From Kordiimonas laminariae (GTDB lineage: Bacteria; Pseudomonadota; Alphaproteobacteria; Sphingomonadales; Kordiimonadaceae), in assembly GCF_023008165.1 (NCBI RefSeq), contig NZ_JAKQZA010000006.1, positions 62,001-126,000 of the forward strand: a stretch of 64,000 nt of DNA, in the 5' to 3' direction. Both the position numbers and the translations under genes were made by a program. The notes under the pieces were generated by a model. It searched no databases and was not told where the DNA came from. It saw nothing but the letters and a program-made list of their open reading frames with translations. Shown one piece after another: positions 44,963 to 62,858 of the stretch. The first letter of the stretch is position 1. Every line of letters begins with the position of its first letter.

Positions 44963-44964
44963 GT

Positions 44965-45785: not shown

Positions 45786-45959
45786 TCATGCAACTGGCTT
45801 TTATTGCCGCCTCACAGACACCTCTGCTCGGCATAAAGTGCATTTTTTTCCAAGAAGCAATATTAAAGCGGAATGAATCTTTTTCCTGATTTAATAGGTA
45901 CATTTTTCAAACTTTACAAAATATCTATTATTTTCAATTACTTACATAAAATAAAAAGT

Positions 45960-45974
45960 TGGCACACCCTTTGC
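45960..45974 (+). promoter_or_regulatory. Sigma-54 promoter of flagellin 1
   Basis: Near-perfect element TGGCACACCCTTTGC (GG-GC 12 bp), 61 bp before the flagellin ATG, within a 249-bp AT-rich gap. Confidence 0.88.
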
Positions 45975-46034
45975 TTATTAATGATCGAAAGCCGAGAACG
46001 GCATGTAGAAACGTCATGAATAAGGAGAGGTTAA

Positions 46035-46865: not shown

Positions 46866-46896
46866 TAGGCAACTATTTCATGACGTTTTCCTTAAG

Positions 46897-46928
46897 CACC
46901 TCAGCCAAAAATTGGCTGAGGTGTTTTT
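46897..46928 (+). terminator. Terminator of flagellin 1
   Basis: Perfect 12-bp stem CACCTCAGCCAA/TTGGCTGAGGTG (46897-46908, 46912-46923) with a 3-nt loop and then TTTTT. Confidence 0.92.
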
Positions 46929-46970
46929 GTTACAAACGTGTTTCGAGGAAATTGTCGCCCGTTGATACCG

Positions 46971-48164
46971 TTAAACTGTCAACACTTTATGCAACGTATC
47001 AACAACTCTTTTTACATCTGCTTCTTCCATTTGCGGGAACAATGGCAAACTTAAAGTCTTAGAATAATACTCTTCTGCCCCCGGCAAATTCTGCATACCA
47101 TATCTTTCTCTGTAATATGGCTGACTGGAAACAGGGATATAATGCACCTGCGTACCAATACTCTGTTCAGATAACTTTCTCATCACAGTTGCACGCGACT
47201 TACCAACCACCTCAAAATCAATCTGCACAGCATATAAATGCCAAGCAGATAAACAATCTTTTGACCGGTCATTTGGCTTTACAAAATTCCCAATAGAACT
47301 AAGCGCATCATCGTAAAAATCAGCAAGTTTCCGGCGCTTTTCCACAAAAGACTCAAGCTTCTTTAATTGAGAAATCCCTAAGGCACACTGCATATCAGTC
47401 GCTCGGTAATTATAACCAAGCTTATGCATTTCATAGTACCAGGGGTTAGCTTGCCCTGAAACATCCAATGCCATATCGCTATGCTGGAAGCTTTCTTCAT
47501 CTCTGTGCATGTCATGGCTACGGATCAACCGCATCATCTGAGCAGCCTTTAGGTCATTAGTTGTAACGACACCGCCTTCACCCATGGCAATTGATTTTAC
47601 TGGATGCAAGGAATAGCAGGCAAAGTCTTCATACTTGCCGTCTCCGGGTTTTCCCCGATCTGAATATTCAGCCCCTAACGCATGACAACAATCAGTGATA
47701 ATTTTTATGCCCTGCTCTTTCGCATAAGCATAAATTTCAGCCATCCCTTCAGAGTGCCCCGTAAGATGTACAGGCATCACAGCTTTCACCGATCCGTCGA
47801 CGCGTGCGATAGCATCTTTGAGGTTATCCAAGGTCATCAACCCCGTCTCCGGATTAACATCGGCGAAAACGACTTTACCCCCAACCATTTCCACAACATT
47901 CGCCGTTGAAAGAAACGTGACAGCAGGCACAACAACTATGTCATCCCTCTCTATACCAGCTACAATAACCGCTAAATGCAGAGCCGTTGTACCGTTTGAT
48001 ACAACCACCGCCTCCTTTGCTCCAACTTGTGAAGCAAACGCTTTTTCAAATTCCGCTGCTTTCGGACCTGCCGTTAACAAGCCGTTCCGCATCACATCCA
48101 CAACGGCCTCGATATCATCTTCTTCGATGGTGTGCCGTCCATAAGGAAGAAAATCTCTGGTCAT
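46971..48164 (-). CDS. pseC: PseC-like UDP-4-amino-sugar aminotransferase (DegT/DnrJ/EryC1/StrS)
   Basis: A 397-aa PLP enzyme. The PLP-binding Lys190 lies in ACYSLHPVKSIAMGEGG, and other fold motifs are VVVSNGTTALHLAV, VPAVTFLSTANVV and ITDCCHALGAEYSD. N-terminal FLPYGRHTIEEDDIEAVV and the pairing with PseB point to UDP-4-amino-4,6-dideoxy-N-acetyl-beta-L-altrosamine synthesis. It is the last gene of the twelve-gene island, 5 bp after pseB. A related aminotransferase acting on the retaining (LegC-type) route cannot be excluded. Confidence 0.87.
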   Translation of the reverse strand: MTRDFLPYGRHTIEEDDIEAVVDVMRNGLLTAGPKAAEFEKAFASQVGAKEAVVVSNGTTALHLAVIVAGIERDDIVVVPAVTFLSTANVVEMVGGKVVFADVNPETGLMTLDNLKDAIARVDGSVKAVMPVHLTGHSEGMAEIYAYAKEQGIKIITDCCHALGAEYSDRGKPGDGKYEDFACYSLHPVKSIAMGEGGVVTTNDLKAAQMMRLIRSHDMHRDEESFQHSDMALDVSGQANPWYYEMHKLGYNYRATDMQCALGISQLKKLESFVEKRRKLADFYDDALSSIGNFVKPNDRSKDCLSAWHLYAVQIDFEVVGKSRATVMRKLSEQSIGTQVHYIPVSSQPYYRERYGMQNLPGAEEYYSKTLSLPLFPQMEEADVKRVVDTLHKVLTV

Positions 48165-48169
48165 TATTA

Positions 48170-49204
48170 CTATCCGTCAGACGAGAGAGTTTTAAGGATA
48201 TCCCTTAATTCTTCGACACTTAGCCACGTATCATTTTTATCACTGGAATATTCAAAACCTTCAGGCATTGCAGGGTGCCCCTCATCTGCAAAACTATCGC
48301 GATCCCAAAAATTCCATTCCGGCTCAATAATATAGCGGTCACCATAATCGACGGTATTTGGCGCATTATGCTCTGTAATCATGATTTCATGAAGCTTCTC
48401 TCCAGGCCGAATGCCAACATGTTTAGTTGGCATACCAGGAGCCATTGCTTCTATGAGATCCGGTAAACGCATAGACGGGATTTTAGGGACAAAAATTTCA
48501 CCACCCCGCATCACATTGGCGCAGGATAACGTGAAAGAAACAGCCTGTTCGAGTGTTACCCAAAAACGTGTCATCCGCTCATCAGTTACAGGAAGCTCTG
48601 TCGCGCCGTTTTTAATCAAGTCCTTAAAAAACGGTATCACGCTACCTCGAGACCCTAGTACATTCCCGTACCGCACCACTGAAAAACGAGTACCAGTTCC
48701 AGAAGCCAGGGCGTTGGCTGCAACAAATATCTTATCTGAAGCTAACTTGCTTGCACCATAAAGATTGATCGGGTTCACCGCTTTATCTGTAGACAGAGCA
48801 ACAACTTTTTCAACACCAGCTTCAATGGAGGCTTGTACGATATTTTCTGCACCAATAACATTCGTACGAATACACTCGAATGGATTATATTCTGCCAATG
48901 GCACCTGCTTTTGGGCGGCAGCATGAATAACTAAATTCACGCCCCGCAGTGCCATTTTCAAACGGTCGCGGTCACGCACATCACCAATAAAGAAACGAAC
49001 ACGCTTTCTGTGTTCTTCAGGGAGGCTGTTTTGCGTCACAAAGTGATTATATTCACCTCGAGCAAAAATGATCACTCGTCTTGGTTTATAATCAGCAAGT
49101 AGCCTGTTCAGTAACATTGTACCAAATGAACCAGTACCGCCGGTTATAAGAATAGATTTATTGTTTAAATCCAACTCGGAGCAATCAAAATCGGTCAGCG
49201 CCAC
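48170..49204 (-). CDS. pseB: PseB-like UDP-GlcNAc 4,6-dehydratase (inverting)
   Basis: A 344-aa extended SDR. Rossmann motif is ITGGTGSFG (20-28), the PseB-specific catalytic segment is STDKAVNPINLYGASKLASD (Asp-Lys and YxxxK), and the substrate region is YGNVLGSRGSVIPFF, then RMTRFWVTLEQAV. It is soluble, unlike the membrane-bound FlaA1/WbpM type. It makes the 4-keto-6-deoxy L-arabino intermediate that starts pseudaminic-acid synthesis. A 73-bp gap separates it from the GH57-like gene. Confidence 0.9.
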   Translation of the reverse strand: MALTDFDCSELDLNNKSILITGGTGSFGTMLLNRLLADYKPRRVIIFARGEYNHFVTQNSLPEEHRKRVRFFIGDVRDRDRLKMALRGVNLVIHAAAQKQVPLAEYNPFECIRTNVIGAENIVQASIEAGVEKVVALSTDKAVNPINLYGASKLASDKIFVAANALASGTGTRFSVVRYGNVLGSRGSVIPFFKDLIKNGATELPVTDERMTRFWVTLEQAVSFTLSCANVMRGGEIFVPKIPSMRLPDLIEAMAPGMPTKHVGIRPGEKLHEIMITEHNAPNTVDYGDRYIIEPEWNFWDRDSFADEGHPAMPEGFEYSSDKNDTWLSVEELRDILKTLSSDG

Positions 49205-49277
49205 AATCGCCTCTCCCCAAAATCACTTTTCTTGGCGCCAGCCTAGCATTTGTAAGAGAAGCTTAAAAGCCTTCTTT

Positions 49278-51254
49278 TTATAGAGGCTTACTGTGTTTTA
49301 TAAGTGATATGGAATAGGTGTAATTTAAAGGTGAAACATATGAAACGATATCCCCTGCACTTCTACCAGAGGTCTCATCATTTTCCTGAGCACTCAACAT
49401 AACCCGTGCAAAATAGTTTGTAGCTACCTCTTGGGTATGCATCATAGCAAGAGCTGCAATATCAGTCCTACGGCATTCCAGTTTCACAGCATGGGATGCG
49501 TCCCCCAGTTCCAGAACACCATCAGTTAAACCAAGTGCTGTAGAAGAAGAAACTAATCTAGAGACCGACTTCCCCTGATCTACAGGAAAATCCATCGGGA
49601 ATCTCTCTCGTTGTTCGCCACCGTTATTCACTTCATAATATAATGTGTCTTTATCAAAGGCCTGAGGTATGAGGGTGAGGTTTCCAAACCGAAAGCTCCC
49701 TTCAATCCGGTCAAACCATTCAGCGTCATAAAACACTTCCAACCTAGAGTTATTTGAATCAAGAACGAGGCGTTTGAATAACGGCCCCCACCTGGTCTGT
49801 ATCGTGCCTTCGATCACCAAAAAACCGTCCGAACCATATATTTCTGGTTCTAGATTGCTTAGATCAGTCACCTTATGACTATTTCCGGGTTCACACACCA
49901 TATGACCGCTATAAAAATCGGCTCCAAAAGAGATATCATCGTAATAACCGTGCGCTAAAGTCCCGATAAGCGAGTTGGCGGCAGGTGCTCCGCCTTCAGA
50001 ACCTGCATAATCACCAAACCCAAACGCCTGAATTGCCATACCACGATATAGGTTCAGAACCAGATGTAGGTCTCCGCATTCTACCGTTAAAAACCTGCGA
50101 TCGCGAGAAACCTTATAAATATCCTGAATATGCCCCTGTTTTAAAACAGCCCTATTAGCTTTGATTTCCGGTAGTTTCTTAAGGAGGTTATCCCAACGTT
50201 TTTCAGTGATATGAGTACGAAAGTCGCTGGCCCAAATACCGCATAATTCACGCCAACCCATGGCTGTACTGTCTTCACTGTTTTTAAGCTTTTCAAACTG
50301 TCGCCAACAATGCGTATTCAATTGCAAATCTGCGCGCCCGGTCACCCCCCAACGGGTGATATTATATTTACGTTGCTTCTTTACGGGAACTGGAACTGCA
50401 GATGTTTCAAGTCTAATACTGGTTTCAGCATTATCCAGCAGAGAGAGAGCTTTCGAAGGTAAAACAATTTCCATTTCATTTTGTGCCTCTAAGGTTTTGA
50501 AAAGCATTTCTATACGAGCATGCTCAACTGCACCCGAAAGCTTACTTTCAGCTTCAAACCTACCTGGCCGGTAATCAAACACTTCACCGTCACTGGTATA
50601 CAGAGGAAATGCCTGCACACCTTTTGCCAGTTGAAGATTGATAAATTCCAAATATTCATCAGCTTCTATCTCACCATGGGCATAGCGTTGAAACTTCTGA
50701 AAAGAAATAGCATCAGACCATAAAACAGGCAGCAGAACATTATCCTGACCTTCAAGTATGGCCGGACGGTGCATAATAGAGGCTGGCCATTCCGGATGAT
50801 GGCTTGCGGGTTCTGCCCAATCCATCATCACGGCCTTAAAGCCGGCTTCTTCATAAAGAGGTAATACCCCAGATGAATATGCCTGTTCATTCACCAAGGC
50901 GATTTCAGGCGTAACACCTAATATTTCTTGATAATCTTCAAGGCCCAGTTTCAAGTTCCACCTTGTCACTTCCGCAGGCACAAGCGGAGCAATCATTTGG
51001 GTGAAACCACTACCAATGAGTTCCGCCTTACCTTCGTTCAGCAATTGCTTAAAGGTAGCGATCCACTTCGGGTCAACACTCAAAATAGCTTGTAGTGTAT
51101 AACTTGTTGCCTCAATACCAATTGGTATTCCATTTTCAGCGAGCTTGAGTAAAGGCCAATAGCATTTCTGAATAACCGTATAGTGATCTTTTTCCTCAAT
51201 AGAAGAGAAAGCCAAGTTCAGATGAAATGCTGTATAAAAATATGGGCTGCTCAT
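49278..51254 (-). CDS. Glycoside hydrolase family 57-like protein
   Basis: A 658-aa protein. The N-terminal (beta/alpha)7-like domain has LNLAFSSIEEKDH, IGIEATSYTLQAI, AELIGSGFTQMIAPLVP and VNEQAYSSGVLPLYEEAGFK, where Glu123 matches the GH57 nucleophile position. The C-terminal half (about 320-650) is beta-rich, as in alpha-amylase/4-alpha-glucanotransferase relatives (YKVSRDRRFLTVECGDLHLV). There is no signal peptide, so it acts in the cytoplasm. A hydrolase or transferase on a nucleotide- or lipid-linked glycan would be unusual in a flagellin pathway; the substrate is unknown. It lies 16 bp after the ATP-grasp gene. Confidence 0.68.
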   Translation of the reverse strand: MSSPYFYTAFHLNLAFSSIEEKDHYTVIQKCYWPLLKLAENGIPIGIEATSYTLQAILSVDPKWIATFKQLLNEGKAELIGSGFTQMIAPLVPAEVTRWNLKLGLEDYQEILGVTPEIALVNEQAYSSGVLPLYEEAGFKAVMMDWAEPASHHPEWPASIMHRPAILEGQDNVLLPVLWSDAISFQKFQRYAHGEIEADEYLEFINLQLAKGVQAFPLYTSDGEVFDYRPGRFEAESKLSGAVEHARIEMLFKTLEAQNEMEIVLPSKALSLLDNAETSIRLETSAVPVPVKKQRKYNITRWGVTGRADLQLNTHCWRQFEKLKNSEDSTAMGWRELCGIWASDFRTHITEKRWDNLLKKLPEIKANRAVLKQGHIQDIYKVSRDRRFLTVECGDLHLVLNLYRGMAIQAFGFGDYAGSEGGAPAANSLIGTLAHGYYDDISFGADFYSGHMVCEPGNSHKVTDLSNLEPEIYGSDGFLVIEGTIQTRWGPLFKRLVLDSNNSRLEVFYDAEWFDRIEGSFRFGNLTLIPQAFDKDTLYYEVNNGGEQRERFPMDFPVDQGKSVSRLVSSSTALGLTDGVLELGDASHAVKLECRRTDIAALAMMHTQEVATNYFARVMLSAQENDETSGRSAGDIVSYVSPLNYTYSISLIKHSKPL

Positions 51255-51270
51255 ATAGCTGGATAAGCCG

Positions 51271-52497
51271 TTATTGTTTCTGAATAATCGGATTAAACTC
51301 TAATAACGCGTTTTCTGCATTTTTAACAGCTTCAGAATATGAAGCACCTGTTGCTTGTACCATAGCAATAGAAGCCGCTGCGTTTTGAGGCCTATCAATA
51401 TAAGAACCAGGGCTTACCCAAGTTTCAAAAGCTAACACATTTTTCATTGCTCGAATTTTTTCTGGTTCTTCGAAACTCAGAAGAGTTCCCTCATCAACCA
51501 TACACCACCGCGTACTAACCGGACACTTTGGTTCATTATTCCACTCAGAAGGATCTAAATCTTCGCCAAGAGCCGTTCTTGCAGCTGCTTCAACCAAATG
51601 AATTCCCGTAGAAAACGGAATTTGATGAGTACAGAAGTACCCACCCGATAACCTGGCAGCCAATTCAATAACGTAAGGCTCATTTTCATGAACAACGATA
51701 TCACCTTTCACAATACCGTTTTCCACACCCAAACTTATTGCAGCATGCGAAACCAAGGTTTCTATTTTTTCAGTTATAGCTTCAGGCAAAGCTGAAGGCA
51801 TCGTGCCGCCGTTTTCCACAATAAACGGATGATATTTATCGAGAAACTCATAACTTCTGTCGGATAGCGCAGGCGTAATAGCCTTGCCTTTAATAACAAC
51901 AGATTCCGTACTAACCTGTGGCCCTTCCAAGTAACGCTCAGCCATTACTCGGCCAGATGGAGAGTTTTGTCTCGCGTTCTCAAATGCCCAATCAGCATCA
52001 CCATTTTGGTCTAAAACAGAAACCCCTTTTGACCCTCGGCTATCCACCGGCTTGACAACAAGCCCCTGCCATTCAGAACGTAAACTTCGAAGTTCGCTTG
52101 TGCTTTCAACCTGCCTGTACTCAGGCACAGGCACACCGTCTGCAACAAATTTGTCCTTCATCGCAAGTTTATCCACAGCGCGGTGAGCTGTTTCCAGAGA
52201 GTTACCGGGTAAATCAAGTTTTTCAGCGATTGCAGCAACAATATGCGGCACATCACATGCCAGGCACATAACACCACTTATCGGTTTTTCAGCGTGATAA
52301 GCTAACACCGCCGGTAAACATACTTCCAAGTGGTAAACACTTGCGATAATTTTATCTTCCGCAAAAGCAAACCCGGGAGCATTTTCATCCATATCACAAA
52401 CAACAAGATGAAAGCCCTTTTGCTGTAAGTCTTTCAATCCTTCCGCAGCCTGACGACCACCGCCTAAAACCAGTAAACGTTTCACGTCATTCGTCAT
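51271..52497 (-). CDS. ATP-grasp domain protein
   Basis: A 408-aa ATP-grasp ligase. A PreATP-grasp Rossmann segment (LLVLGGGRQAAEGLKDLQQK) is followed by the ATP-grasp fold with LVVKPVDSRGSKGVSVLDQ, AERYLEGPQVSTESVV and the metal-binding IELAARLSGGYFC. It resembles carbamoyl-phosphate-synthase-like and biotin-carboxylase-like ligases, which join a carboxylate to an amine through an acyl phosphate. In this island it might attach an amino acid or other acid to an amino sugar (inference). Its stop is adjacent to the SDR gene. Confidence 0.8.
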   Translation of the reverse strand: MTNDVKRLLVLGGGRQAAEGLKDLQQKGFHLVVCDMDENAPGFAFAEDKIIASVYHLEVCLPAVLAYHAEKPISGVMCLACDVPHIVAAIAEKLDLPGNSLETAHRAVDKLAMKDKFVADGVPVPEYRQVESTSELRSLRSEWQGLVVKPVDSRGSKGVSVLDQNGDADWAFENARQNSPSGRVMAERYLEGPQVSTESVVIKGKAITPALSDRSYEFLDKYHPFIVENGGTMPSALPEAITEKIETLVSHAAISLGVENGIVKGDIVVHENEPYVIELAARLSGGYFCTHQIPFSTGIHLVEAAARTALGEDLDPSEWNNEPKCPVSTRWCMVDEGTLLSFEEPEKIRAMKNVLAFETWVSPGSYIDRPQNAAASIAMVQATGASYSEAVKNAENALLEFNPIIQKQ

Positions 52498-53238
52498 CTA
52501 AAAATACAGACCACCGTTAACGTTAATTGTCTGAGCTGTTATATAACTTGATTTGTCACTTCCAAGAAAAACGGCGGTTTTGGCCACTTCTTCCGTAGTT
52601 GCAAAACGCTTCATAACCACCTGCTCCGCAGCTGCTTTAACAGCCGGGCTATTCATAGCATTCTCAGCCATTTCCGATGCCACAAGTCCGGCAGCCAATG
52701 TATTGCTACGAATGCCATCGTCAGCAAGGAATCTTGCAATCACCTGCCCGAGCGAAATCAAACCCGCTTTACTTGCAGCATAATGTGCGGTGCGTGGCCC
52801 ACCATACTGGCCAGAAACAGAACCAATATGCACAACACTTGCGTTACCGGATTTACGAAGCAGGCCAAGCGCTTCTTGCGTTACAACAAATGGGCCCTTC
52901 AGATTAACGCCAAGAATTTCATCCCAATCTTCATCAGTGATCTGGTCAAAATCTGTTGGGTTATTAATCCCAGCATTATTTACCAAAACATCAAGTTGCC
53001 CATGTGCAGCTTCAATCGTGTTGAACACATTTTTAAGCGCCTCACGGTCACGTACATCTGCTTTAAACGCTCGCCCTTCACCAAGGCCAATTTCTGAACA
53101 TGTTTCTTTGGCGGCTGCATCATTCGATGAATAGGTAAAATATACCTCAGCGCCTTCTTTAACATACTCAGTAACGATTGCTTTCCCGATACCACGACTA
53201 CCACCAGTTATCAGGGCAATTTTACCTTTGAGGTCCAT
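52498..53238 (-). CDS. SDR family oxidoreductase (FabG-like)
   Basis: A 246-aa classical SDR. It has the cofactor motif TGGSRGIG (11-18), NNAG (87-90), catalytic Ser140, Tyr153 and Lys157 (YAASK), and a C-terminal NVNGGLYF typical of FabG relatives. It is probably NADP(H)-dependent, since the residues after the first glycines include Ser-Arg. In this context it may reduce or oxidise a keto-sugar or a small acid made by the adjacent transketolase rather than serve fatty-acid synthesis (inference). It is 1 bp from both neighbouring genes. Confidence 0.83.
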   Translation of the reverse strand: MDLKGKIALITGGSRGIGKAIVTEYVKEGAEVYFTYSSNDAAAKETCSEIGLGEGRAFKADVRDREALKNVFNTIEAAHGQLDVLVNNAGINNPTDFDQITDEDWDEILGVNLKGPFVVTQEALGLLRKSGNASVVHIGSVSGQYGGPRTAHYAASKAGLISLGQVIARFLADDGIRSNTLAAGLVASEMAENAMNSPAVKAAAEQVVMKRFATTEEVAKTAVFLGSDKSSYITAQTINVNGGLYF

Positions 53239-53239
53239 T

Positions 53240-54196
53240 TTATTTACCTGCTAATTCGCGGCATGCTGCTGCAACACTATCTGCATCAATGCCAAACATT
53301 GTTGGAAGTTCATCATGTTCACCAGATTTACCAAATACATCTTTGATCCCGATAAATTTGACGCGTGCCGGATGATGTTCCGCGAGGCATTCTGCCACCG
53401 CACTTCCCATACCGCCCATAATGTTATGATCTTCCGCAGTTACGATACCGCTGGTTTCCCGGGCTGCAGCAACCACTTCATCCACATCAATCGGCTTAAT
53501 GGTAGAGAGGTTTACCACACGCACACTAATACCCTCTGCCTCCAGCATTTCAGCAGCTTTCAAAGCGCGCGCTACCATAACACCGCAGGCGATCACGGTA
53601 ACATCTGATCCTTCACGAACACGATTAGCTTTACCAATTTTAAATTCAGCATTTGCTTCATACACCACAGGCGTAGGACTTCGGCCAATACGCATATAAA
53701 CTGGGCCATCATGATCAAGAACCGCCTTGAAAGCCTGCATAAATTCATTTGCGTCTGCAGGAACAACCACCGTTACGTTCGGAATAGCGCGCATAGTAGC
53801 GATATCTTCAAACATCTGTGCTGTTGCACCGTCCGGTCCTACATCTACACCAATATGAGAACAACAAAGCTTCACATTGCGTTCTGCATAAGCCACCGCC
53901 GTACGGAACTGTTCATGCGCTCGCATACAGCCGAACGCCGCAAACGTGGAAACAACAGGAATTAACCCTGTATCTGCAACCCCCGCGGAAGCAGCCATCA
54001 TATTCTGTTCTGCAATACCAAATTGCATTACACGGTCAGGATTACTGCCAACAAGCGGTTTTGCACCAGTTCCTCCTGCCACATCAGCATCCAGAAGAAC
54101 CCAGTCTTCACGCTCTGAAGCTTGATCGACAAGTACGCGCCCGAAGGCATCGCGTACAGAAACTTCTTCACCAACATTCCAATATTCGAGCGCCAT
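53240..54196 (-). CDS. Transketolase-like protein, C-terminal subunit
   Basis: About 318 aa from ATG 54196 (MALEYWNVGEEVSVRDAFGR), just after the N-subunit's TAA and with GGGGA upstream; the longer frame overlaps that gene. It holds the pyrimidine-binding domain (ADVAGGTGAKPLVGSNPDRV, FGIAEQNMMAASAGVADTGL with the catalytic Glu, STFAAFGCMRAHEQFR) and the C-terminal domain (DVTVIACGVMVARALKAAEM). With the next gene it forms a two-subunit TPP enzyme, as in archaeal transketolases and some sugar-biosynthesis clusters. Confidence 0.85.
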   Translation of the reverse strand: MALEYWNVGEEVSVRDAFGRVLVDQASEREDWVLLDADVAGGTGAKPLVGSNPDRVMQFGIAEQNMMAASAGVADTGLIPVVSTFAAFGCMRAHEQFRTAVAYAERNVKLCCSHIGVDVGPDGATAQMFEDIATMRAIPNVTVVVPADANEFMQAFKAVLDHDGPVYMRIGRSPTPVVYEANAEFKIGKANRVREGSDVTVIACGVMVARALKAAEMLEAEGISVRVVNLSTIKPIDVDEVVAAARETSGIVTAEDHNIMGGMGSAVAECLAEHHPARVKFIGIKDVFGKSGEHDELPTMFGIDADSVAAACRELAGK

Positions 54197-54197
54197 C

Positions 54198-55025
54198 TTA
54201 CACTTCCCCAAGAGCTGCAAGCGAGTCAGCCAACTGTTCATCTGTCATTGTTACACTGCCATGCCACATAAGAACGTTTTCCATAAAGGAAATACCTTTC
54301 CCTTTAACCGTATCAGCATAAATAAATGTCGGTTTACCTTTGGTAGTTTTAGCTTCTTCAAAAGCGGTTTTCAGCGCATCAATATCATGCCCATCCACAT
54401 TAATTACGTGCCAACCAAATTCCGCTACCTTTTTACCAACATCTCCCATATCCAGTTGCTCTTTAACAGAAGCGTCTCCTTGGAGTTTATTGGCATCATA
54501 AATTGCAACAAGATTATCCATGCCCTTATGGCCTGCACACATGATTGCTTCCCACGTATTGCCTTCCTGCATGTCGCCATCACCAAGGATTACATGGGTA
54601 CGAAAATCTTTCTTTAGGTGTTTAGCACCCATCGCCATACCCAGTCCTTGGCTCAACCCCATGCCAAGTGAACCTGATGGCGCATCAATTCCCGGTATAC
54701 GAACATCAGGGTGCCCCTCAGCAAAACCATCAATCTTGCGAAGTTTCAATGCTTCTTCCATAGGGAAATAACCGCGCATTGCCAACACCACATAAAGCGC
54801 CGGGCATGCATGCCCTTTAGAGAGAATAAATCGGTCCCGGTCAGCCCAATTGGGGTTACCCGGTTCAACATTCATCACATCAAAATAGAGTACCGCAAGC
54901 ATATCTGCGATTGAGAGGGCTCCTCCCGGATGCCCCGAACGACCAGCATGAATGGCTTTAACCGCACCAACACGGATCTGGTGAGCTAAATCTTTAAGAG
55001 GGTAATTCATCATATTCATTTTCAT
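54198..55025 (-). CDS. Transketolase-like protein, N-terminal subunit
   Basis: A 275-aa TPP-binding subunit. It has SGHPGGALSIADMLAVLYFD, LSKGHACPALYVVLAMRGYF and the diphosphate/metal motif GDGDMQEGNTWEAIMCAG, continuing to NLVAIYDANKLQGD. Split transketolases in surface-sugar clusters transfer two-carbon units onto unusual acceptors, for example making a branched or elongated sugar. Whether this pair acts on primary metabolites or on the flagellar sugar is unknown. Several Met codons lie at the start (MKMNMM); the second or third could be used. Confidence 0.85.
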   Translation of the reverse strand: MKMNMMNYPLKDLAHQIRVGAVKAIHAGRSGHPGGALSIADMLAVLYFDVMNVEPGNPNWADRDRFILSKGHACPALYVVLAMRGYFPMEEALKLRKIDGFAEGHPDVRIPGIDAPSGSLGMGLSQGLGMAMGAKHLKKDFRTHVILGDGDMQEGNTWEAIMCAGHKGMDNLVAIYDANKLQGDASVKEQLDMGDVGKKVAEFGWHVINVDGHDIDALKTAFEEAKTTKGKPTFIYADTVKGKGISFMENVLMWHGSVTMTDEQLADSLAALGEV

Positions 55026-55042
55026 TCTCTATCGTAGAGGTA

Positions 55043-56104
55043 TCAATCATCAGCATCTTTGAGGATATTTTCTATACTGGAACGCCCTAGTTTTTTACGA
55101 CTATCAACCTTCCCACTCCAATCCCAGTCTATGCAATCACTACACACACAATCTTTCGGAATTCGATTGGTTAGGTGCTCCCCTCTCAATTGGGCCATCT
55201 TGTCACCCTGCCAAGCTTCAGCAATGGTCATGTCCCTGATATTTCCGACTGATAATTCCCCGTCAATATTCTGGCTACAAGGAACCAGTTCGCCATTCGA
55301 TAAAACCACAAGCCGTTGCCAGAGCTGCCTGCAAGGCAATCTGTCAGCATCAGAACGCTTCATAATGCCTTCCGAATTAACATCCCCTTGAGTTTCCCGA
55401 ATTTTTGCCCGGCCTATATAGTCGAATTGCGGGCTAATATGGAAGTTATTTACTCTATCTTTCCAGAGATTTTTGAAAGTTTCAATCTCTTCATCCGTTT
55501 CACTAGTACGGACATATGTCATTGAAATCCAAGGATTATCCCTACCGTGCTTGGCTTTACACTCTCTAAGGTAATCAAGGTTTCTAATCACTTTATCGAA
55601 ACTGTCTGTACCTCGAATAGCGGCATATTTTTCTCTGTTCAAACCTTCAAATGAGATATGTACAGAATTAAGCCCATCAGTAACCATACGCTCTATTTCT
55701 GAACGCTTGATAGTCGTTAAATTTGTCGTAACAGAAACCACCGGTATATTCTTACGCTTAGCGTAGGCGATATAGTCGATAGTTTTTCGGTTCATAAACG
55801 GCTCACCAAAGAAGAAGAAATGAACAGCGTACACACCAAATTCAGCACACTCATCAATAGCCTTATAAGCAATATCATCTTCTACAAATCCAACTGTGCG
55901 CTGCATATCTGGGTGTACACACATTACACACGTCTGATTACATTTGTTGGTAGGTTCAATATGAACCGTCATAGGTACTTCAGTATTTAACTTCAAATTA
56001 TATGAAAGCTGAGAAAACTTTATATATTCCTCACGCGTGTTAGGAACAAAAGAGGATAACCCTCTAATTTCATCTGCATCCATAAAGTCGCTTAAAGCTT
56101 TCAT
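55043..56104 (-). CDS. Radical SAM/SPASM domain protein
   Basis: About 353 aa from ATG 56104 (MKALSDFMDADEIRG), with GAGGG 9 nt upstream. The [4Fe-4S] SAM-binding motif CNQTCVMC follows EPTNK (Cys55, 59, 62), in the core barrel with FFFGEPFMNRKT and VSVTTNLTTI. A C-terminal SPASM-like domain has Cys in RLPCRQLW, LVPCSQN and CVCSDC. SPASM enzymes modify peptides or sugars through radical chemistry. The placement suggests modification of the flagellin sugar or of flagellin itself (inference). Confidence 0.85.
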   Translation of the reverse strand: MKALSDFMDADEIRGLSSFVPNTREEYIKFSQLSYNLKLNTEVPMTVHIEPTNKCNQTCVMCVHPDMQRTVGFVEDDIAYKAIDECAEFGVYAVHFFFFGEPFMNRKTIDYIAYAKRKNIPVVSVTTNLTTIKRSEIERMVTDGLNSVHISFEGLNREKYAAIRGTDSFDKVIRNLDYLRECKAKHGRDNPWISMTYVRTSETDEEIETFKNLWKDRVNNFHISPQFDYIGRAKIRETQGDVNSEGIMKRSDADRLPCRQLWQRLVVLSNGELVPCSQNIDGELSVGNIRDMTIAEAWQGDKMAQLRGEHLTNRIPKDCVCSDCIDWDWSGKVDSRKKLGRSSIENILKDADD

Positions 56105-56182
56105 ATCAAACACCCTCACAGCAAAATAGCTATTTAATCAAGCAAATATTAAGCCAAACTAAGTACGGCCAAGACGTCAAAC

Positions 56183-57103
56183 TTAGTCATTTGGGAACTG
56201 TGCAAACAACACTACCAACCGCCCCATACCAACATCCGCTAGTGCACGGTAAAAATCTTCATGAAAACCATTTTTATTTACAGCCATATTTAGATCAAAA
56301 TTCTTACGCCAACCATGCAGTTTTCTCCCCAAATCAGGCTTCTGCGTGTAGGCTTGCCCCATTAGCAAAAACATTTCCATAGGGAAGTTAGTAGTTTTAT
56401 CAAATACATCTAACCCAGCCTTTGCGATAAGATTAGCAAGGCTATCAAAATCAAAATAATTCAAATGATGGTTCGGCACTACCCACCAGGGGCTATAGTC
56501 GCAAGCATCAACCAATGCCCGTTGCATAGGACTAAAATCGTTAGGTACGGAAATTGTTAAAATTCCATTTTCTTTCAATAACCCTTTGGCTAATTGAATA
56601 ACTTCAAGAGGATTAGGGACATGTTCCAACACCTCGCTCATATGAACAAAATCAAACTTCGGGAGGTTATTTGCAGCATTTGCATCGAAGAAACCAGTTT
56701 GAACATCAAGCCCCCGGCTTCGAGCATACTTTGATGCCACAGAGGAAGGTTCAATACCCCGCACATCCCATCCTCGGTCTTTGCCATGAGCAAGGAAATC
56801 ACCAGGACCACAACCGATATCAAATGCTGTTAGTCGCTCACCAGATCTATTGGACAGCTTCTTTTCTACAATATCGTAACGCCTACCAAATTCAATATCA
56901 CGCCAACTATCATCGGCGGAACTTGCTGCTATGTATTCTTTTTTATCACTCTGATAAAATTCTTCTTCATAAAGCTTTCTTAATGCTTCTGATGAAGGCA
57001 GCTCAATAACATGCTTATAGCCGCAAACCTGACAATCCATAACGACATCATCAAGTTTTTCTCCCCAGCAGTTTAAACTGTTCTTTGCATTACAATTGCT
57101 CAT
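56183..57103 (-). CDS. Class I SAM-dependent methyltransferase with N-terminal Cys cluster
   Basis: A 306-aa protein. Four Cys at 4, 12, 24 and 27 form a possible zinc site, as in C-methyltransferases acting on NDP-sugars. The Rossmann SAM domain has FDIGCGPGDFLAHGKDRG (about 96-113), GIEPSSVASKYA and HMSEVLEHVPNPLEVI. The C-terminal part includes VVPNHHLNYFDFDSLANLIA. It is probably a methyltransferase for a sugar or lipid-linked sugar of the island. AGGAC lies 8 nt before the ATG. Confidence 0.82.
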   Translation of the reverse strand: MSNCNAKNSLNCWGEKLDDVVMDCQVCGYKHVIELPSSEALRKLYEEEFYQSDKKEYIAASSADDSWRDIEFGRRYDIVEKKLSNRSGERLTAFDIGCGPGDFLAHGKDRGWDVRGIEPSSVASKYARSRGLDVQTGFFDANAANNLPKFDFVHMSEVLEHVPNPLEVIQLAKGLLKENGILTISVPNDFSPMQRALVDACDYSPWWVVPNHHLNYFDFDSLANLIAKAGLDVFDKTTNFPMEMFLLMGQAYTQKPDLGRKLHGWRKNFDLNMAVNKNGFHEDFYRALADVGMGRLVVLFAQFPND

Positions 57104-57115
57104 AAAACTGTCCTG

Positions 57116-58849
57116 TCAGCTAAGAAATCTGTTCTGAATTTCAGATGCAAACCTCTGTGCTCCTTTACGTATCTCATTTGTCACGGACTTTAAGGCCTCT
57201 ATAGAATTTGATTTTTTAGTCGCAATAGCCGCCAGAGCCTCTTCAGCACTATCAAACACAAAATCAGGGAGGTGTTCTTTTAAAGCTTCCCATTCCTCGG
57301 GTAACGCAGCACCAACGGCATCAAACGTGTAGGCAGGCTTACCTGCATAAATAGCCTCAAAGAAACTAACACCGTATACAGAGAAAATAGCATCATGTTC
57401 CGTAATAAGTTTCAGCACATCTGCAGGTGCCTCAACGACGTCTATTCTCTTTTCTTTCTCCGGAACTTCCGGTGCGGAAGCATAAGCCCCTTTCAGCCAA
57501 GTATGCTGTATATCTGAGCCAAGTTGCGACAACAATCTTTCAGGCAAATAACTACCTAATTCTGCAGTATCACTTCCCCCAGTAAGAACCAACAGAGATT
57601 GAACATCTGCAACTATACTTTGGGAGGCGCCTACACGTCTCAATAAATAACTATCCCAACCATAACAGATTTTGGCTGCATACCGAGATATCCGTGCTGG
57701 ATCGACATAAAACGACGGGATCCAAACTAAATCAAAAAAGTCGTCAAACTGCGCATCAAAATCTATACCTATTGTTTTGCAAGAACTCTCACTCTGTTTA
57801 AAATGCTCCACCACGTCATCGGGCATTTTCTTTAAATCAAAAATGAAAACTTCTGTTTCCTTGATCTTCTGTTCCAAAAACTCGCCGGTGAAATCATCCA
57901 CCCACACATGAGGAACCAATGCGAGTTCATCCAAATCCAGAGGTTCCCCGCGGATTATTATCTCCACCTTTGCACTCAAGTAATCCTGTAGTGCGCCGGC
58001 AGCAGCCAGCGAACGCATTAAATGCCCGAGGCCAACCTCTTGGCCAACTTCTGTTAGGATCGTAATTGCGACAGAGGTATCCCTAATCTTCTTTTGCCTT
58101 ACATCAACATTAATAGACGCAAGCTCCTTATCTCTTCCCAACTCCTCAATTACCCAAGTCAGATCAACAATCTTATGCCCGTCGCTATTTCTTGACCACC
58201 GTTCATATACCTCCCTCATAAATCTGTAATCTGAAGGTGTATCTACGGAAACCCTATGCTCTAGGCTACTGAATACTTCTGGCTCTTTAAGTTTAGCGAT
58301 TTTCCTCGGCTCAACCTTTTTTAAGTGATGATATACAGCTCCAATATGCTCTCGCTCGAACGGTTCGTGCGCAACAGCAACCATCTCGTCCCAAAAACGT
58401 TTTCGGTAAATATCGAAGCCTTCATGGATATTCTTGAAACCACTATCCCCCGACAATAATTGGACTATATCAACTTCATCATCTGTTATTACGGCCTCAA
58501 GCATGCGAGAGATTGTTTCAGGTTCTATAAGAGGGCAATCTCCGCATACATATAAAATGATATCTGCCTTATACGCTTGAGTGACCGCATCAACTCGCCC
58601 GACCAAATCATTCACATCGCCTGAAAACGCAAAACAATCTCTACCCTCTTCTTTCGCCCAATCTCTAATCGGCAGGTTGTAGCCATCAGATGTGGTAGCC
58701 AGAACTGACTGAGAAATCCCTTTCACATTATCCAAACGTTCAAAGATATGAGAGATAAGAGGCCTTCCGGCTAGCGGTAAAAGATGCTTTTTCGGTAACC
58801 GCGAAGAATTCAATCTCGCCCCTACAATGGCAACTACTTTTTCTGCCAT
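57116..58849 (-). CDS. Fused cytidylyltransferase (SpsF/PseF-like) and PseG-like hydrolase
   Basis: A 577-aa two-domain protein. Residues 1-245 form a nucleotidyltransferase fold starting VVAIVGARLNSSRLPKKHLL, with ADIILYVCGDCPLIEP as the nucleotide/metal motif (SpsF/PseF type; CMP transfer to a nonulosonic acid). Residues about 262-577 match PseG: VGLGHLMRSLAAAGAL carries the His of the PseG active site, followed by a GT-B-like second domain (SLLVLTGGSDTAELG, ISVYGVSFFEAIYAGKP-like). PseG removes UDP from the diacetamido sugar before condensation. Fusion of two non-consecutive steps around PseI suggests channeling. It overlaps the synthase gene by 16 bp. Confidence 0.82.
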   Translation of the reverse strand: MAEKVVAIVGARLNSSRLPKKHLLPLAGRPLISHIFERLDNVKGISQSVLATTSDGYNLPIRDWAKEEGRDCFAFSGDVNDLVGRVDAVTQAYKADIILYVCGDCPLIEPETISRMLEAVITDDEVDIVQLLSGDSGFKNIHEGFDIYRKRFWDEMVAVAHEPFEREHIGAVYHHLKKVEPRKIAKLKEPEVFSSLEHRVSVDTPSDYRFMREVYERWSRNSDGHKIVDLTWVIEELGRDKELASINVDVRQKKIRDTSVAITILTEVGQEVGLGHLMRSLAAAGALQDYLSAKVEIIIRGEPLDLDELALVPHVWVDDFTGEFLEQKIKETEVFIFDLKKMPDDVVEHFKQSESSCKTIGIDFDAQFDDFFDLVWIPSFYVDPARISRYAAKICYGWDSYLLRRVGASQSIVADVQSLLVLTGGSDTAELGSYLPERLLSQLGSDIQHTWLKGAYASAPEVPEKEKRIDVVEAPADVLKLITEHDAIFSVYGVSFFEAIYAGKPAYTFDAVGAALPEEWEALKEHLPDFVFDSAEEALAAIATKKSNSIEALKSVTNEIRKGAQRFASEIQNRFLS

Positions 58850-59691
58850 TCCAACCTCACGGCTTTTGTTGGACGAAGACCATCAGAAGGATCAGCTCGC
58901 CAAGGCCTATCCGCTATTTCTGCTGCCGTTGGAGTTTTCACACCATCTCCGTCAGCAAGTGCTAAACGTTTTTGCGCAGATATGAGCGGTGCAATTTCAT
59001 CTGGCAACCAACAATGCCCCGCTTGGTATTCCGCACCGTTTTCATCAAGATCAATATGAAACTCAATTACAGATGCATCGTAGCGATCAATTGCTCGGCT
59101 TATAATACCTGGGTCCCGGCTATGATCAGACCAACCCACACGCGCCCCTGCGGCTTCACGTATGGTCTTAATGGCCGATAAATTACAGCTTTCTGGAGGT
59201 GCTGGATACCCGGAGACACAGTGCAATAAAGTCAATTCCGCCCCACCTGCAGTATTAAAAACATTTACCGCATGCAGCACCTCTTCCAACGTGGCCATCC
59301 CAGTTGAAAGAATTAGGGGCTTCCCCGTGCACGCACAAGCAATGATCAGATCATCCCAAGGAAGCTCATAAGATGCGATTTTATAAAAGTCTACATAGGG
59401 CTTCAACTCTTCCACAGCCTTGAGATAGAAAGGCGTACAGGAAAACTGTATATCATGCCGGTCACACTCAGCCTTCAATTCAGGAAGAAATTCCAGTGGA
59501 AGCTCCCAGTTTCTCCGTCTCTGGTGCTCTTTGCTACGAGAGAGAATTTCTGGAGCGAATAATTCATCAATTTTAAAAAGCTGAAACTTAACAGCATCAC
59601 AGCCAATTTCAGCAGAACGCCGAATAAACTCTTTGGCGCGCTCGATATTTTGAGCATGATTGCTGGAAACCTCTGATATAAAAAATGACAT
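58834..59691 (-). CDS. N-acetylneuraminate/pseudaminate synthase-like protein lacking SAF domain
   Basis: A 285-aa NeuB/PseI TIM barrel that condenses a hexose derivative with phosphoenolpyruvate. Motifs: FFISEVSSNHAQNIERAKEF, CDAVKFQLFK, FSCTPFYLKAVEELKPYV, FYKIASYELPW, LILSTGMATLEEVL, LLHCVSGYPAPPESCNL and VGWSDHSRDPG. Usual family members have about 340-350 aa with a C-terminal SAF (antifreeze-like) domain that closes over the active site of the dimer partner. That domain is missing here and the gene ends in frame with the next one. The exact product (pseudaminic acid, legionaminic acid or a relative) is open. Confidence 0.83.
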   Translation of the reverse strand: MSFFISEVSSNHAQNIERAKEFIRRSAEIGCDAVKFQLFKIDELFAPEILSRSKEHQRRRNWELPLEFLPELKAECDRHDIQFSCTPFYLKAVEELKPYVDFYKIASYELPWDDLIIACACTGKPLILSTGMATLEEVLHAVNVFNTAGGAELTLLHCVSGYPAPPESCNLSAIKTIREAAGARVGWSDHSRDPGIISRAIDRYDASVIEFHIDLDENGAEYQAGHCWLPDEIAPLISAQKRLALADGDGVKTPTAAEIADRPWRADPSDGLRPTKAVRLEWQKK

Positions 59692-59699
59692 AAATATCT

Positions 59700-61544
59700 C
59701 TATAAATTCAACTTTTCGCGCACAGCTTTTCCTGTTTTCTCCAAAATCTCAGGCCACGTATCGCCATGAACAACTTTAGCATCTTTCACGAATACTGCAT
59801 CACTGCCATCACCAACCCCGAAGCTCCACCAAATTTCATAAAGCGACATCAATATTGTTGGACACCCACACGACATGGCAAAAATACCCGGCGCTGAAGT
59901 ACTTGAAAGCACCAAATCACAGTTCGTCATAATCGCTAAGTTGGCTTCAATATCCTGCTTAAGGTTAACGTCTTCAAACTGATGGACATCAACACCATAT
60001 AGCTCTTTCATTTGCTTGAGCTCTTCTTCACAATCACCATATTGTAAATTCACAAACTCAACATGATCTTTAAGCGCCATGACCGGCCCCAAATGCTTAG
60101 CTGAGCAATATAAATAACTCCGTTTCTTGTTAAGAATACCACTTCTCCAGGCAAGACCCACCTTAGGTTTATTGCCCAATTTTTTAAAACGCTTAGCAAA
60201 TTTCTCAACAAGTTCCGGATCAGGTATCAGGCTTGGTTGGCCAGCATACTTAACATCTTCAGAAGTCTTCCAGTTGTACCTAGGAGCACTAGCTAACGGG
60301 ACAGAGTAATCAATCTCTAACTCTCCGTCTTTCATCATCTTCTGCATTTTAGGAAAACTACGATAGCGGTACCCTTGCGTAACCACATCTGCCAAAGGAG
60401 AAACAATGGCATTAGGATATGATCTTTCATAGATACTCGCCAAACGAGGTTCACAACCAATTATAATCTGGTCTGCTTGTTTCTCTAATTCCCGAAAATG
60501 GTTACCCCACATCACTTCATCACCAATTCCTTGCTCTGCGGCTAGAAACAGCTTTTTGCCTTTAAGGCTCTCACCTTGCCATTCAGGAATGTTATGGGTA
60601 TAAATCTGCGTCTGATTGCTATCTCTCATCGGAGAGTATCTTGCCTCATAATATTTCCAGGCTTCCTGCAAATCTCCGATCATGAACAAAAGAACGGCCA
60701 GCCCCAATTGTGGCTCAGGTGAATGCGGATTAAGCTCAATTGATTTCCTGTCCGCCTCAATCGCCTTTGGAAATTTCCCCATCTGGGTATAGCTCATTGC
60801 AAGGTTGCTATATATTTTAAAGTCCCCAGGGTTAAGACGTATAGCCTCCTGAAAGAAAACAACGCTTTCTTCCGCACCATCTCTTGCCCTCACCTGCGTT
60901 GCGAGTACATTCCATAAATCAGAGCTCTCTGGAAAAACAGGTATAACCTGCTGCAACATCTCGATGCTTTCATCATAACGTTCTTCAGCAGAGTATGCAG
61001 TGGCCAAGTTCACATAATGACGCGATTCTCGTGGCTCCATACTAACAAGAATATTACCAATTTTCACCGCCACATCATAAATTCGCATATTCAATGCCAA
61101 GTTCATAATAACAGACACAATATCAGGCGTGGGCGTATGATGTTTAAGTGCTCTCTCAATAACTAGTATCGCTTTATCTCGCACTCCAAGGTGATTGAGG
61201 CAATGGGCAATCACGGTAAGCAAATCTAGATCATTGGGCAGATAATCCCAGGCTTCCAGGAAATGGACCAGAGCTTGGTCAAAACGATTTTTTTCAACCA
61301 GCTTTCGGCCATTATTAAGGGTTTTCTGTAGAGCATTAGCCTGTTTGGGAGTTAGAGGCTTTGAAGCAGTATCATCAGCAACGATTTCTCTTGAAATTCC
61401 ACCAATAACTGAGGAAAAATCTCTTCCCCCCAATAAATCTGGCACTTGCAAACCTGCGGCAGCCAGCGGGTCTGGCTTTAGCCCAATAGGACTTTCGCTC
61501 TGCTCGTTAGCTTTCTCAAGATCCGTCATGTTTGCAGGCTGCAT
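59700..61544 (-). CDS. FlmG-like TPR/GT41-type protein, probable flagellin glycosyltransferase
   Basis: A 614-aa cytoplasmic protein. Residues about 75-330 contain TPR repeats (ALVHFLEAWDYLPNDLDLLT, NVLATQVRARDGAEESVVFF, KIYSNLAMSYTQMGKFPKAI). Residues about 340-610 form an OGT/GT41-like domain (LAAEQGIGDEVMWGNHF, KVGLAWRSG, DLVLSSTSAPGIFAMSCGCP). This layout equals Caulobacter FlmG, where the TPR part binds flagellin and the GT part adds pseudaminic acid. It is the first gene of the island, about 100 bp after a sigma-54 promoter. ATG 61544; a second Met (MTDLEKANE) is possible. Confidence 0.78.
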   Translation of the reverse strand: MQPANMTDLEKANEQSESPIGLKPDPLAAAGLQVPDLLGGRDFSSVIGGISREIVADDTASKPLTPKQANALQKTLNNGRKLVEKNRFDQALVHFLEAWDYLPNDLDLLTVIAHCLNHLGVRDKAILVIERALKHHTPTPDIVSVIMNLALNMRIYDVAVKIGNILVSMEPRESRHYVNLATAYSAEERYDESIEMLQQVIPVFPESSDLWNVLATQVRARDGAEESVVFFQEAIRLNPGDFKIYSNLAMSYTQMGKFPKAIEADRKSIELNPHSPEPQLGLAVLLFMIGDLQEAWKYYEARYSPMRDSNQTQIYTHNIPEWQGESLKGKKLFLAAEQGIGDEVMWGNHFRELEKQADQIIIGCEPRLASIYERSYPNAIVSPLADVVTQGYRYRSFPKMQKMMKDGELEIDYSVPLASAPRYNWKTSEDVKYAGQPSLIPDPELVEKFAKRFKKLGNKPKVGLAWRSGILNKKRSYLYCSAKHLGPVMALKDHVEFVNLQYGDCEEELKQMKELYGVDVHQFEDVNLKQDIEANLAIMTNCDLVLSSTSAPGIFAMSCGCPTILMSLYEIWWSFGVGDGSDAVFVKDAKVVHGDTWPEILEKTGKAVREKLNL

Positions 61545-61643
61545 ATTCTATCTCCCTACCCGGCACAAACTACCAACCAACCGGATATTTTCTCCCAAAT
61601 CCTAACGATTTAGTCACCATATTTGCTTTAACTTACCTTTACT

Positions 61644-61658
61644 GCAAGGCAAATGCCA
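61644..61658 (-). promoter_or_regulatory. Sigma-54 promoter of the flagellin-glycosylation island
   Basis: Minus-strand element TGGCATTTGCCTTGC with GG-GC distance 12 bp and a perfect TTGC -12 box, 100 bp before the FlmG-like start. It is the only strong promoter candidate seen for the twelve-gene operon. Confidence 0.7.
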
Positions 61659-61769
61659 AGAAAACACTAGCCTTTTCAAATCATAATTCCTTATGATATA
61701 AAGACTTAGTTTACTTTATTCTGATTTATTGGATTTCTAACGGGCAGAAATAGCTCCGGGGAGGCATGT

Positions 61770-62165: not shown

Positions 62166-62198
62166 GAGCCTGCATTAGCAAACGAGTTCCGGTGTAGT

Positions 62199-62786: not shown

Positions 62787-62858
62787 ATCTATGGGTTTGG
62801 TTGCAAAATGCGGCCAAGGACAAAAAGTCCGCCAAAACTCTCAGAATGGAGATGAAAA

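Follow-up and report, generated by a model that had tools for sequence, protein, structure and literature searches.

Which sugar is made by a flagellar operon that begins as the pseudaminic acid (Pse) pathway does and lacks PseH? The question is raised by a 64,000-nucleotide stretch of Kordiimonas laminariae DNA (the window), part of a 230,731-base contig in a genome of 3.65 Mb, where twelve open reading frames (ORFs), all on the minus strand and separated by short gaps or overlapping, run head to tail over 46971–61544 from the gene of an FlmG-like transferase (at 61544) to that of PseC (at 46971). An earlier note on this DNA had proposed here a twelve-gene island beside flagellin genes that may make an undescribed nonulosonic acid (NulO). 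The island is borne out, flanked by a flagellin gene on one side and by FlbT and FlaF on the other, and we propose that it probably makes a CMP-activated, N7-acylated Pse that is placed on flagellin. 'Undescribed' then applies to the exact substituent and its genes and not to the class, because N7-acylated Pse on flagellin has partial precedents; we file the system under a known kind, NulO-based flagellin glycosylation, with the N-acyl group as what varies here.

The classical steps in the operon

We checked the domains of the window ORFs against Pfam and NCBIfam. Only two operon proteins pass curated cut-offs for Pse enzymes: PseB, the inverting UDP-GlcNAc 4,6-dehydratase (48170–49204, minus strand; TIGR03589, 492.7 bits against a cut-off of 407.75), and PseC, the UDP-4-amino-4,6-dideoxy-N-acetyl-L-altrosamine transaminase (46971–48164, minus strand; TIGR03588, 460.3 bits against 423.5). 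The earlier note had counted steps B, C, F, G and I as present; for the last three this holds in kind only, because their scores are under the curated cut-offs or absent. The PseI-like protein reaches 156.8 bits against 340.25, with a match that stops at model position 263 of 327, the PseG-like half of a fusion protein reaches 31.1 against 153.55, and the PseF model TIGR03584 matches no operon protein at E<=0.01. That PseH is missing, as the note had said, extends to the whole genome, where the best match scores 39.2 bits against a cut-off of 93.1 and none passes it.

The PseI/NeuB-type synthase (58834–59691, minus strand; here the short PseI) has 285 residues and consists of a NeuB domain only, the SAF domain being absent. 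A second NeuB-family gene elsewhere in the genome was considered as a candidate and rejected, the genome-wide search returning this single match. The best-matching solved chains of the short PseI are SpsE (1vli), the 290-residue 6ncs and the pseudaminic acid synthase 8h2c, and its relatives share a WRADP-DGLRP tail, in which each of six positions checked is conserved in 41/41 sequences (42 loci having a match). The fusion (57116–58849, minus strand; CTP_transf_3 and a weak PseG match) is one divergent chain that joins a CMP-NulO synthetase-like half of SpsF/KdsB type to the PseG-like half, and we take SpsF and SpsG to be the nearest kinds to these halves. In its predicted model (pLDDT 89.7) the N-terminal half resembles a Leptospira cytidylyltransferase (6oew) and the rest resembles GT-B proteins, among which PseG 3hbn stands at rank 37 (TM-score 0.65 by target length).

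Two gene sets at one flagellar locus

In relatives, the same flagellar locus holds either the classical set or a set with a protein like glycoside hydrolase family 57 (GH57-like) and an ATP-grasp ligase. The GH57-like gene occurs in 21 of 59 genomes, counting the window's own; within the genus it is present in 15 of 19. We mapped 20 GH57-like stretches from 19 of these genomes (G056 was left out) and set them beside 18 GH57-negative PseB loci (L162–L181 minus L176 and L177, which come from GH57-positive genomes and have a short PseI), counting best tblastn matches of at least 60 bits. Wherever the GH57-like stretches are long enough, the frame reads FlgI, FlgJ, flagellin, then PseC, PseB, GH57-like and a variable part up to PseF/PseG-like, short PseI and FlmG-like, and then FlbT, FlaF and flagellins; it differs in two loci from another family of the order (L046, L047), which have PseB and short PseI on other contigs.

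In a member of the same genus (L162), the slot contains PseB, PseC, PseI (464.9 bits), PseG (168.8) and PseF (292.9), the last three all over their cut-offs, together with a PseH adjoining PseB that scores 71.4 bits, below its cut-off of 93.1; there is no ATP-grasp or GH57-like match at that locus. A member of the same family (L163) is likewise classical (PseG 180.7 bits, PseF 289.1). The 20 GH57-like loci contain no PseH, no classical PseF and no classical PseG, and one classical-type PseI, an extra copy in L031; the short PseI is found in 12 of them and ATP-grasp in 18, the two without ATP-grasp (L048, L050) being truncated by contig ends and the eight without short PseI either stopping before that region or having the gene on another contig. 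The 18 GH57-negative loci have classical PseI in 12, PseF in nine, PseG in eight, PseH in seven (in L172 at just 67 bits) and short PseI in none; four of these loci (L162, L163, L173, L174) supplied the classical queries, so these match by construction. Across whole genomes, PseB is over its cut-off in 36 of 59 and PseH is matched at E<=1e-12 in eight, four of them over cut-off, and the sole GH57-positive genome among the eight (G022) has its 55.3-bit PseH match on a contig different from that of its PseB. Separately, one GH57-negative Kordiimonas (L164 5146–9820, genome G004) has a transketolase pair and a short-chain dehydrogenase/reductase (SDR) gene in the neighbourhood of PseH and of a gene of PseF type; the locus may be a relic or a hybrid.

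A proposed route to an N7-acylated sugar

In Kordiimonas all steps after PseC differ from the classical ones, which fits an intermediate changed at the PseH step. On the strength of their family assignment, PseB and PseC would convert UDP-GlcNAc to UDP-4-amino-4,6-dideoxy-L-AltNAc. The middle genes, whose domains are largely as the earlier note had stated, suggest what may follow. A split transketolase (C-terminal half 53240–54241, minus strand, PF02779/PF02780, 6yaj at E 7.3e-82; N-terminal half 54198–55025, minus strand, PF00456, 6yak at E 4.1e-79) could extend an aldehyde acid by a two-carbon ketol unit, and the SDR, a FabG-like reductase by its domain matches (52498–53238, minus strand), could reduce the new ketone to give a polyhydroxy acid; judging by the reading frames, the start of the C-terminal half is more likely at 54196 than at 54241. 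A methyltransferase dependent on S-adenosylmethionine (SAM; 56183–57103, minus strand, Methyltransf_23), together in this species with a radical SAM enzyme, may then decorate the acid. Such ATP-grasp ligases link a carboxylate to an amine, and the one encoded here (51271–52497, minus strand; ATP-grasp_3, PF02655, with LAL_C2, PF18603; solved matches 4dim and 3vot, the latter an L-amino acid ligase) is L-amino-acid-ligase-like and would couple the acid to the 4-amine that PseH otherwise acetylates. By their families, the PseG-like half would remove UDP, the short PseI-like synthase condense the sugar with phosphoenolpyruvate, the PseF-like half form the CMP sugar and the FlmG-like protein transfer it to flagellin in the cytoplasm.

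Kurniyati et al. are said to have found in 2017 that the flagellin glycan of Treponema denticola is a mono-acetylated, Pse-configured NulO with an N7-(2-methoxy-4,5,6-trihydroxyhexanoyl) group. Such an acyl could arise here from a four-carbon aldehyde acid through transketolase, SDR and an O-methyltransferase; by analogy it might be the acyl of the window's sugar, a guess that we rate as doubtful and that predicts a shift of +450.18 Da per site before any change made by the radical SAM enzyme. The identity of the acid thus becomes a matter of direct mass predictions.

Of the note's suggestions on the substituent, a flagellin-linked NulO with PseH replaced and a likely unusual N-acyl group is upheld, and nothing specific speaks for a C-methyl group. 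The 'C-methyltransferase-like' protein has only general methyltransferase domains and a MetW match at E<=0.01, whereas the mark of the sugar C-methyltransferase family is, we assume, the pair of C-methyltransferase N- and C-terminal Pfam domains. The radical SAM enzyme (55043–56119, minus strand) has both the CxxxCxxC motif (C60-x3-C64-x2-C67; PF04055) and the SPASM domain (PF13186), with BtrN as its best solved relative (4m7s, E 3.4e-8). We considered it as a core part and rejected this: at E<=1e-40 it occurs in one of 385 genomes of the class, the window's own, and it is matched at four of 80 named loci, so it is a rare, optional add-on.

A GH57-like enzyme proposed for the pathway

The GH57-like protein (49278–51254, minus strand) combines a GH57 domain at residues 1–366 (Glyco_hydro_57, PF03065, 62.4 bits against a cut-off of 21.2) with a C-terminal domain that is galactose-mutarotase-like in the predicted model (pLDDT 85.4; Z about 17). 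The modelled GH57 domain superposes on amylopullulanase 7e1y (Z 30.6, root-mean-square deviation 3.2, 345 residues aligned), and by sequence the protein matches the 4-alpha-glucanotransferase 1k1w at E 1.4e-6, its E123 and D222 aligning with E123 and D214, which we take to be the catalytic pair of that Thermococcus litoralis enzyme. Glu123 is conserved in 82/82 and Asp222 in 83/83 sequences read, and because of this the protein is probably an active enzyme. A role as replacement for PseG was rejected, a PseG-like ORF standing directly before the GH57-like gene in four loci (L114, L116, L119, L125). Leaving its reaction aside, we place the GH57-like enzyme in the same NulO pathway because it travels with the short PseI.

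This link to NulO synthesis would be a new one: we know of no GH57-like glycosidase from any such NulO pathway. In a literature search that ran mostly outside subscription journals, the matches listed included no report tying a GH57-like enzyme to NulO synthesis, and nothing useful was found on transketolase or GH57 with flagellin sugars. Two cyanobacterial loci (L120, L124) have GH57-like genes whose neighbours are alike between the two and unlike the cassette. Their genomes give no short PseI match at E<=1e-20, and the enzyme may serve another purpose there.

Recurrence across bacteria

The GH57-like alignment, used in a pattern-seeded scan of an 84,980-species collection, brought up 137 relatives, of which the best 80 were kept. 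We examined 67 further loci (L064–L130), many of them on short contigs and two of them (L068, L080) repeating L046 and L047. The neighbours of GH57-like in these 67 are ATP-grasp (54), SDR (47), flagellin (38), methyltransferase (36), the N- and C-terminal transketolase halves (32 each), short PseI and PseC (31 each), window-type PseF (29), PseB (26), FlmG-like (24) and radical SAM (2); PseH is found in none, nor has it a match at the 80 named and 20 mapped GH57-like loci. A recurrent order is methyltransferase, a variable part, the N- and C-terminal transketolase halves, SDR, ATP-grasp, GH57-like, PseB, PseC and flagellin. Transketolase, SDR, methyltransferase and ATP-grasp genes recur beside GH57-like across phyla, and because the same block recurs in other genomes, the arrangement of the operon is not due to chance.

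The GH57-like gene and the short PseI also keep company across genomes. For 36 of the 67 genomes the available stretch had no short PseI; 25 of these carry it elsewhere at E<=1e-120, and one more has a partial copy, which we counted as present. Among 398 Pseudomonadota genomes, GH57-like is matched at E<=0.001 in six, four of them strongly (at least 580 bits), and the short PseI (E<=1e-60) occurs in exactly those four (Fisher p 9.7e-10, counting as negatives the two weak matches of 33.5 and 23.9 bits, which we take as ordinary GH57). In the order of G369, with 295 genomes, both occur in the same three (p 2.4e-7), one of which is also in the 398-genome sample. These p values are a guide only, since the tests ignore shared ancestry. 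Among 72,556 plasmids, the short PseI (E<=1e-40) and GH57-like (E<=1e-20) each occur in one, and it is the same plasmid: pDCAR1 of Solidesulfovibrio carbinolicus, with genes for PseF, methyltransferase, FabG, the transketolase halves, ATP-grasp, GH57-like, PseB and PseC. The note had held that conservation of the middle genes independently of flagellin genes would count against it, and outside Kordiimonas this is partly seen, pDCAR1 having nearly the whole cassette and no flagellin within the 30 kb examined.

An exchangeable middle

Against the closest relative, L031, the window shows 84% identity over 44272–52476 and 74% over 58206–64000, and blastn finds no match across the intervening 5.7 kb, although the PseG half can still be aligned as protein (40%). 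The simplest middle (L045) has just ATP-grasp, SDR and the two transketolase halves; others have a DXS-like enzyme, a DAHP-synthase-family protein, iron alcohol dehydrogenases, a second NeuB with a SAF domain, FkbM and other methyltransferases, an asparagine-synthase-like protein, polysaccharide pyruvyl transferases, pairs of PIG-L and formyltransferase genes, or a sulfotransferase. With such a swappable middle, close relatives may differ in the chemistry of their flagellar surface.

Some of these middles hint at further chemistry. In L121 (8383–10004) and L081 (8371–9989), a PIG-L de-N-acetylase and formyltransferase pair lies between ATP-grasp and GH57-like, which suggests that N-formyl replaces N-acetyl in some NulOs. 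The middles of L036, L037 and L049 encode split transketolases and iron alcohol dehydrogenases, two of each, plus a DAHP-synthase-family protein, which looks like equipment for building a longer carbon chain. In L031 (8250–10286), the SAF-bearing second NeuB stands beside a 153-residue TPP_enzyme_C protein and an unmatched 178-residue protein, perhaps together a small split enzyme dependent on thiamine diphosphate (ThDP).

Taken jointly, these patterns allow a broader view that we hold tentatively, as somewhat less than an even bet: a distinct NulO branch, spread across phyla, would diverge after PseC; a transketolase–reductase–ligase module would build polyhydroxy acids by carbon–carbon bonds and tie them to the sugar amine; the GH57-like glycosidase would be a near-obligate partner of the SAF-less PseI; and species would exchange the acid module as they do a serotype locus, which would give close relatives flagella with different acyl groups.

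Weighing the alternatives

Several observations weigh against an N7-acylated Pse made by this gene set. Within the genus and its relatives, the ATP-grasp of L031 is 81% identical to the window's despite the quite different middle, so ligase and acid type do not correspond one to one; four loci (L034, L038, L042, L043) have GH57-like and ATP-grasp with no transketolase match, which makes GH57-like independent of transketolase; the GH57-negative L180 carries an ATP-grasp match (one of 18); and PseF is nearer to the window's type in four of the 18 GH57-negative loci. The idea that the PseG half tracks the middle type was rejected, since a permutation over 10 loci, with middle types assigned by us, showed no significant covariation (p 0.15). 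Among the 67 further loci, 13 have no ATP-grasp match, 21 have no NulO gene in the available stretch, and the best match is of classical type for PseG in seven, for PseF in one and for PseI in one; 10 of the 67 genomes, two cyanobacteria included, have no short PseI or a weaker one. In pDCAR1 and G1022, PseF is closest to the classical type (44–49% identity) alongside a short PseI, so replacement of PseF is not a constant feature. Published systems, cited here and below from parts of their texts, add to this. The ATP-grasp mutant of Shewanella oneidensis swims and its flagellin shift is slightly smaller than that of the other sfm mutants (PMC3765264), so loss of the ligase need not abolish glycosylation, and the operon as described in that part of the paper has no GH57-like and no radical SAM gene.

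The plainest alternative is ordinary di-N-acetyl Pse, acetylated by an unlinked GNAT enzyme, with the middle genes serving a separate residue or decoration that is added to it. Generic GNAT matches to the PseH model, of up to 39.2 bits, do exist in the genome, the middle is swappable while PseB and PseC are retained, and Caulobacter crescentus mutants that lack the PseH homologue FlmH, even with two paralogues lost as well, do not show the phenotype of mutants in the other steps (PMC7591256), so that another acetyltransferase could stand in here too. We nevertheless consider it quite unlikely, given that PseH has no match at any of the 80 named and 20 mapped GH57-like loci, that classical PseH, PseG and PseI occupy the same locus in other relatives, and that a change in every step after PseC fits an altered intermediate better than late decoration.

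The extra unit might instead be a second sugar or polyol joined glycosidically, with GH57-like as a transglycosidase and ATP-grasp adding something small. The full glycosidase fold of the model and the invariance of Glu123 (82/82) and Asp222 (83/83) speak for this, and the formula C9H16O7 reported for S. oneidensis (PMC3765264) is by itself compatible with a glycoside; but the twelve genes show nothing that would supply a second sugar in nucleotide-activated form, and transketolase, SDR and ATP-grasp better fit acid building and amide formation, so we regard a glycosidic unit as unlikely. That the product is another stereoisomer, not Pse-configured, seems very unlikely: the PseI, PseG and PseF equivalents are divergent, and the best solved match of the short PseI, SpsE, belongs to a legionaminic acid pathway (PMC7439481), yet PseB and PseC pass equivalog cut-offs, and pDCAR1 and G1022 pair the classical-closest PseF with a short PseI (44–49% identity). 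An N7-acylated Pse thus remains the product that we favour.

Flagellar setting and promoter motifs

The operon is headed, as the note had said, by the FlmG-like gene (59700–61544, minus strand), which shares with FlmG a place near flagellins and, in its product, an N-terminal tetratricopeptide repeat (TPR) domain matched by Pfam; where FlmG has a GT-B domain, the C-terminal part of the product gives no Pfam glycosyltransferase match and no convincing match among PDB sequences. At the other end, PseC (DegT aminotransferase), preceded by PseB (Polysacc_synt_2), converges on a flagellin gene (46035–46865, plus strand; PF00669/PF00700), with a terminator-like inverted repeat between the two (46894–46926). 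The flagellar regulators FlbT (from 61770) and FlaF (from 62199) lie beyond FlmG-like at 61770–62609 on the plus strand. The flagellin N-terminal domain is matched ten times in the genome, nine times over cut-off. Seven lie on the window's contig, C24 (at 108047 and over 124871–130728); apart from the one at 46047 in the window, six form an array that adjoins FlbT/FlaF, from 62871 on.

Two exact sigma54-type motifs occur in the window, one before the flagellin gene at 46035 (45960–45974) and one (63841–63855) directly upstream of the next flagellin, whose domain match starts at 63921. With one mismatch, the motif is also found on the strand of FlmG-like 100 bp upstream of that gene (61644–61658, minus strand; TGGCAT-N5-TTGC) and upstream of FlgI (43497) at 43423–43437. 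At up to two mismatches the pattern turns up in the window about as often as chance predicts (72 found against 65.6 expected); we used only exact and one-mismatch sites, by position, and the window's seven remaining one-mismatch sites are placed differently or were not looked at. Of the 12 FlmG–FlbT intergenic regions scanned, those of the window and 11 mapped loci, all but that of L045 have a motif with at most one mismatch on the FlmG strand; six of these 11 motifs are exact and the other five have one mismatch. The operon's promoter motif is like that of the neighbouring flagellin, and this resemblance fits co-regulation.

Comparison with known systems

Caulobacter provides a parallel for the transfer step: its FlmG, like the window's, is a TPR-type transferase, there acting on several flagellins, and its FlmA and FlmB are homologues of PseB and PseC, as in the window (PMC7591256). 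Unlike the window, Caulobacter possesses a PseH homologue, FlmH; its modification is given as Pse, and ATP-grasp, transketolase and GH57-like genes go unnamed in the part of that paper available (PMC7591256). Bacillus subtilis SpsE is, by structure-sequence match, the nearest kind to the short PseI, whereas the sps system includes an acetyltransferase, SpsD, and serves legionaminic acid on spores (PMC7439481). Clostridial flagellin glycans carry amide-linked acids, as we propose for the window: Clostridium botulinum has Leg5GluNMe7Ac (PMC13317340), and Clostridioides difficile type B has peptidylamido-glycans, with a gene for an ATP-grasp carboxylate-amine ligase, CDR20291_0245, by the flagellin glycan locus (PMC5207246). 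These glycans differ from ours in being of legionaminic type or built on other sugars and in having amino-acid acyl groups, and transketolase goes unmentioned in the text searched of both papers.

Gene-level parallels among the literature matches listed came from S. oneidensis and, for ATP-grasp only, C. difficile. T. denticola, a spirochaete, is likened here by glycan mass and by the structure given above; its flagellin glycan has a mass of 450.2 Da (PMC9481697), which is fitted by our computed 274.116 + C7H12O5 = 450.185 Da. The closest likeness is to the sfmABCDE operon of S. oneidensis, where PseB and PseC are present and PseH, PseG, PseI and PseF have no clear homologues, and where flagellin modification requires a 290-residue NeuB-type protein, a ThDP enzyme, an SDR and a methyltransferase (PMC3765264). 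The window has the same enzyme classes—short NeuB, ThDP enzyme, SDR, methyltransferase, ATP-grasp and PseB/PseC, with no PseH—a likeness by class as described in that partial text, in which the S. oneidensis glycan is measured; that of Kordiimonas is predicted from genes. The ThDP enzyme is IlvB-like in S. oneidensis and a split transketolase in the window, and the suspected transferases are Maf proteins in the one and FlmG-like in the other (PMC3765264). The S. oneidensis glycan consists of a 274 Da core plus 236, 250 or 264 Da (C9H16O7, C10H18O7, C11H20O7), the extra moiety being nitrogen-free with O-methyl signals (PMC3765264); the core equals mono-N-acetyl Pse, and the sums with the three additions compute to 510.206, 524.222 and 538.237 Da. 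By analogy, its genetics and mass spectrometry fit in kind the logic of the pathway proposed here, which makes the Kordiimonas set a likely gene basis for N7-acylated pseudaminic acids, a chemistry partly described in S. oneidensis and, reportedly, in T. denticola.

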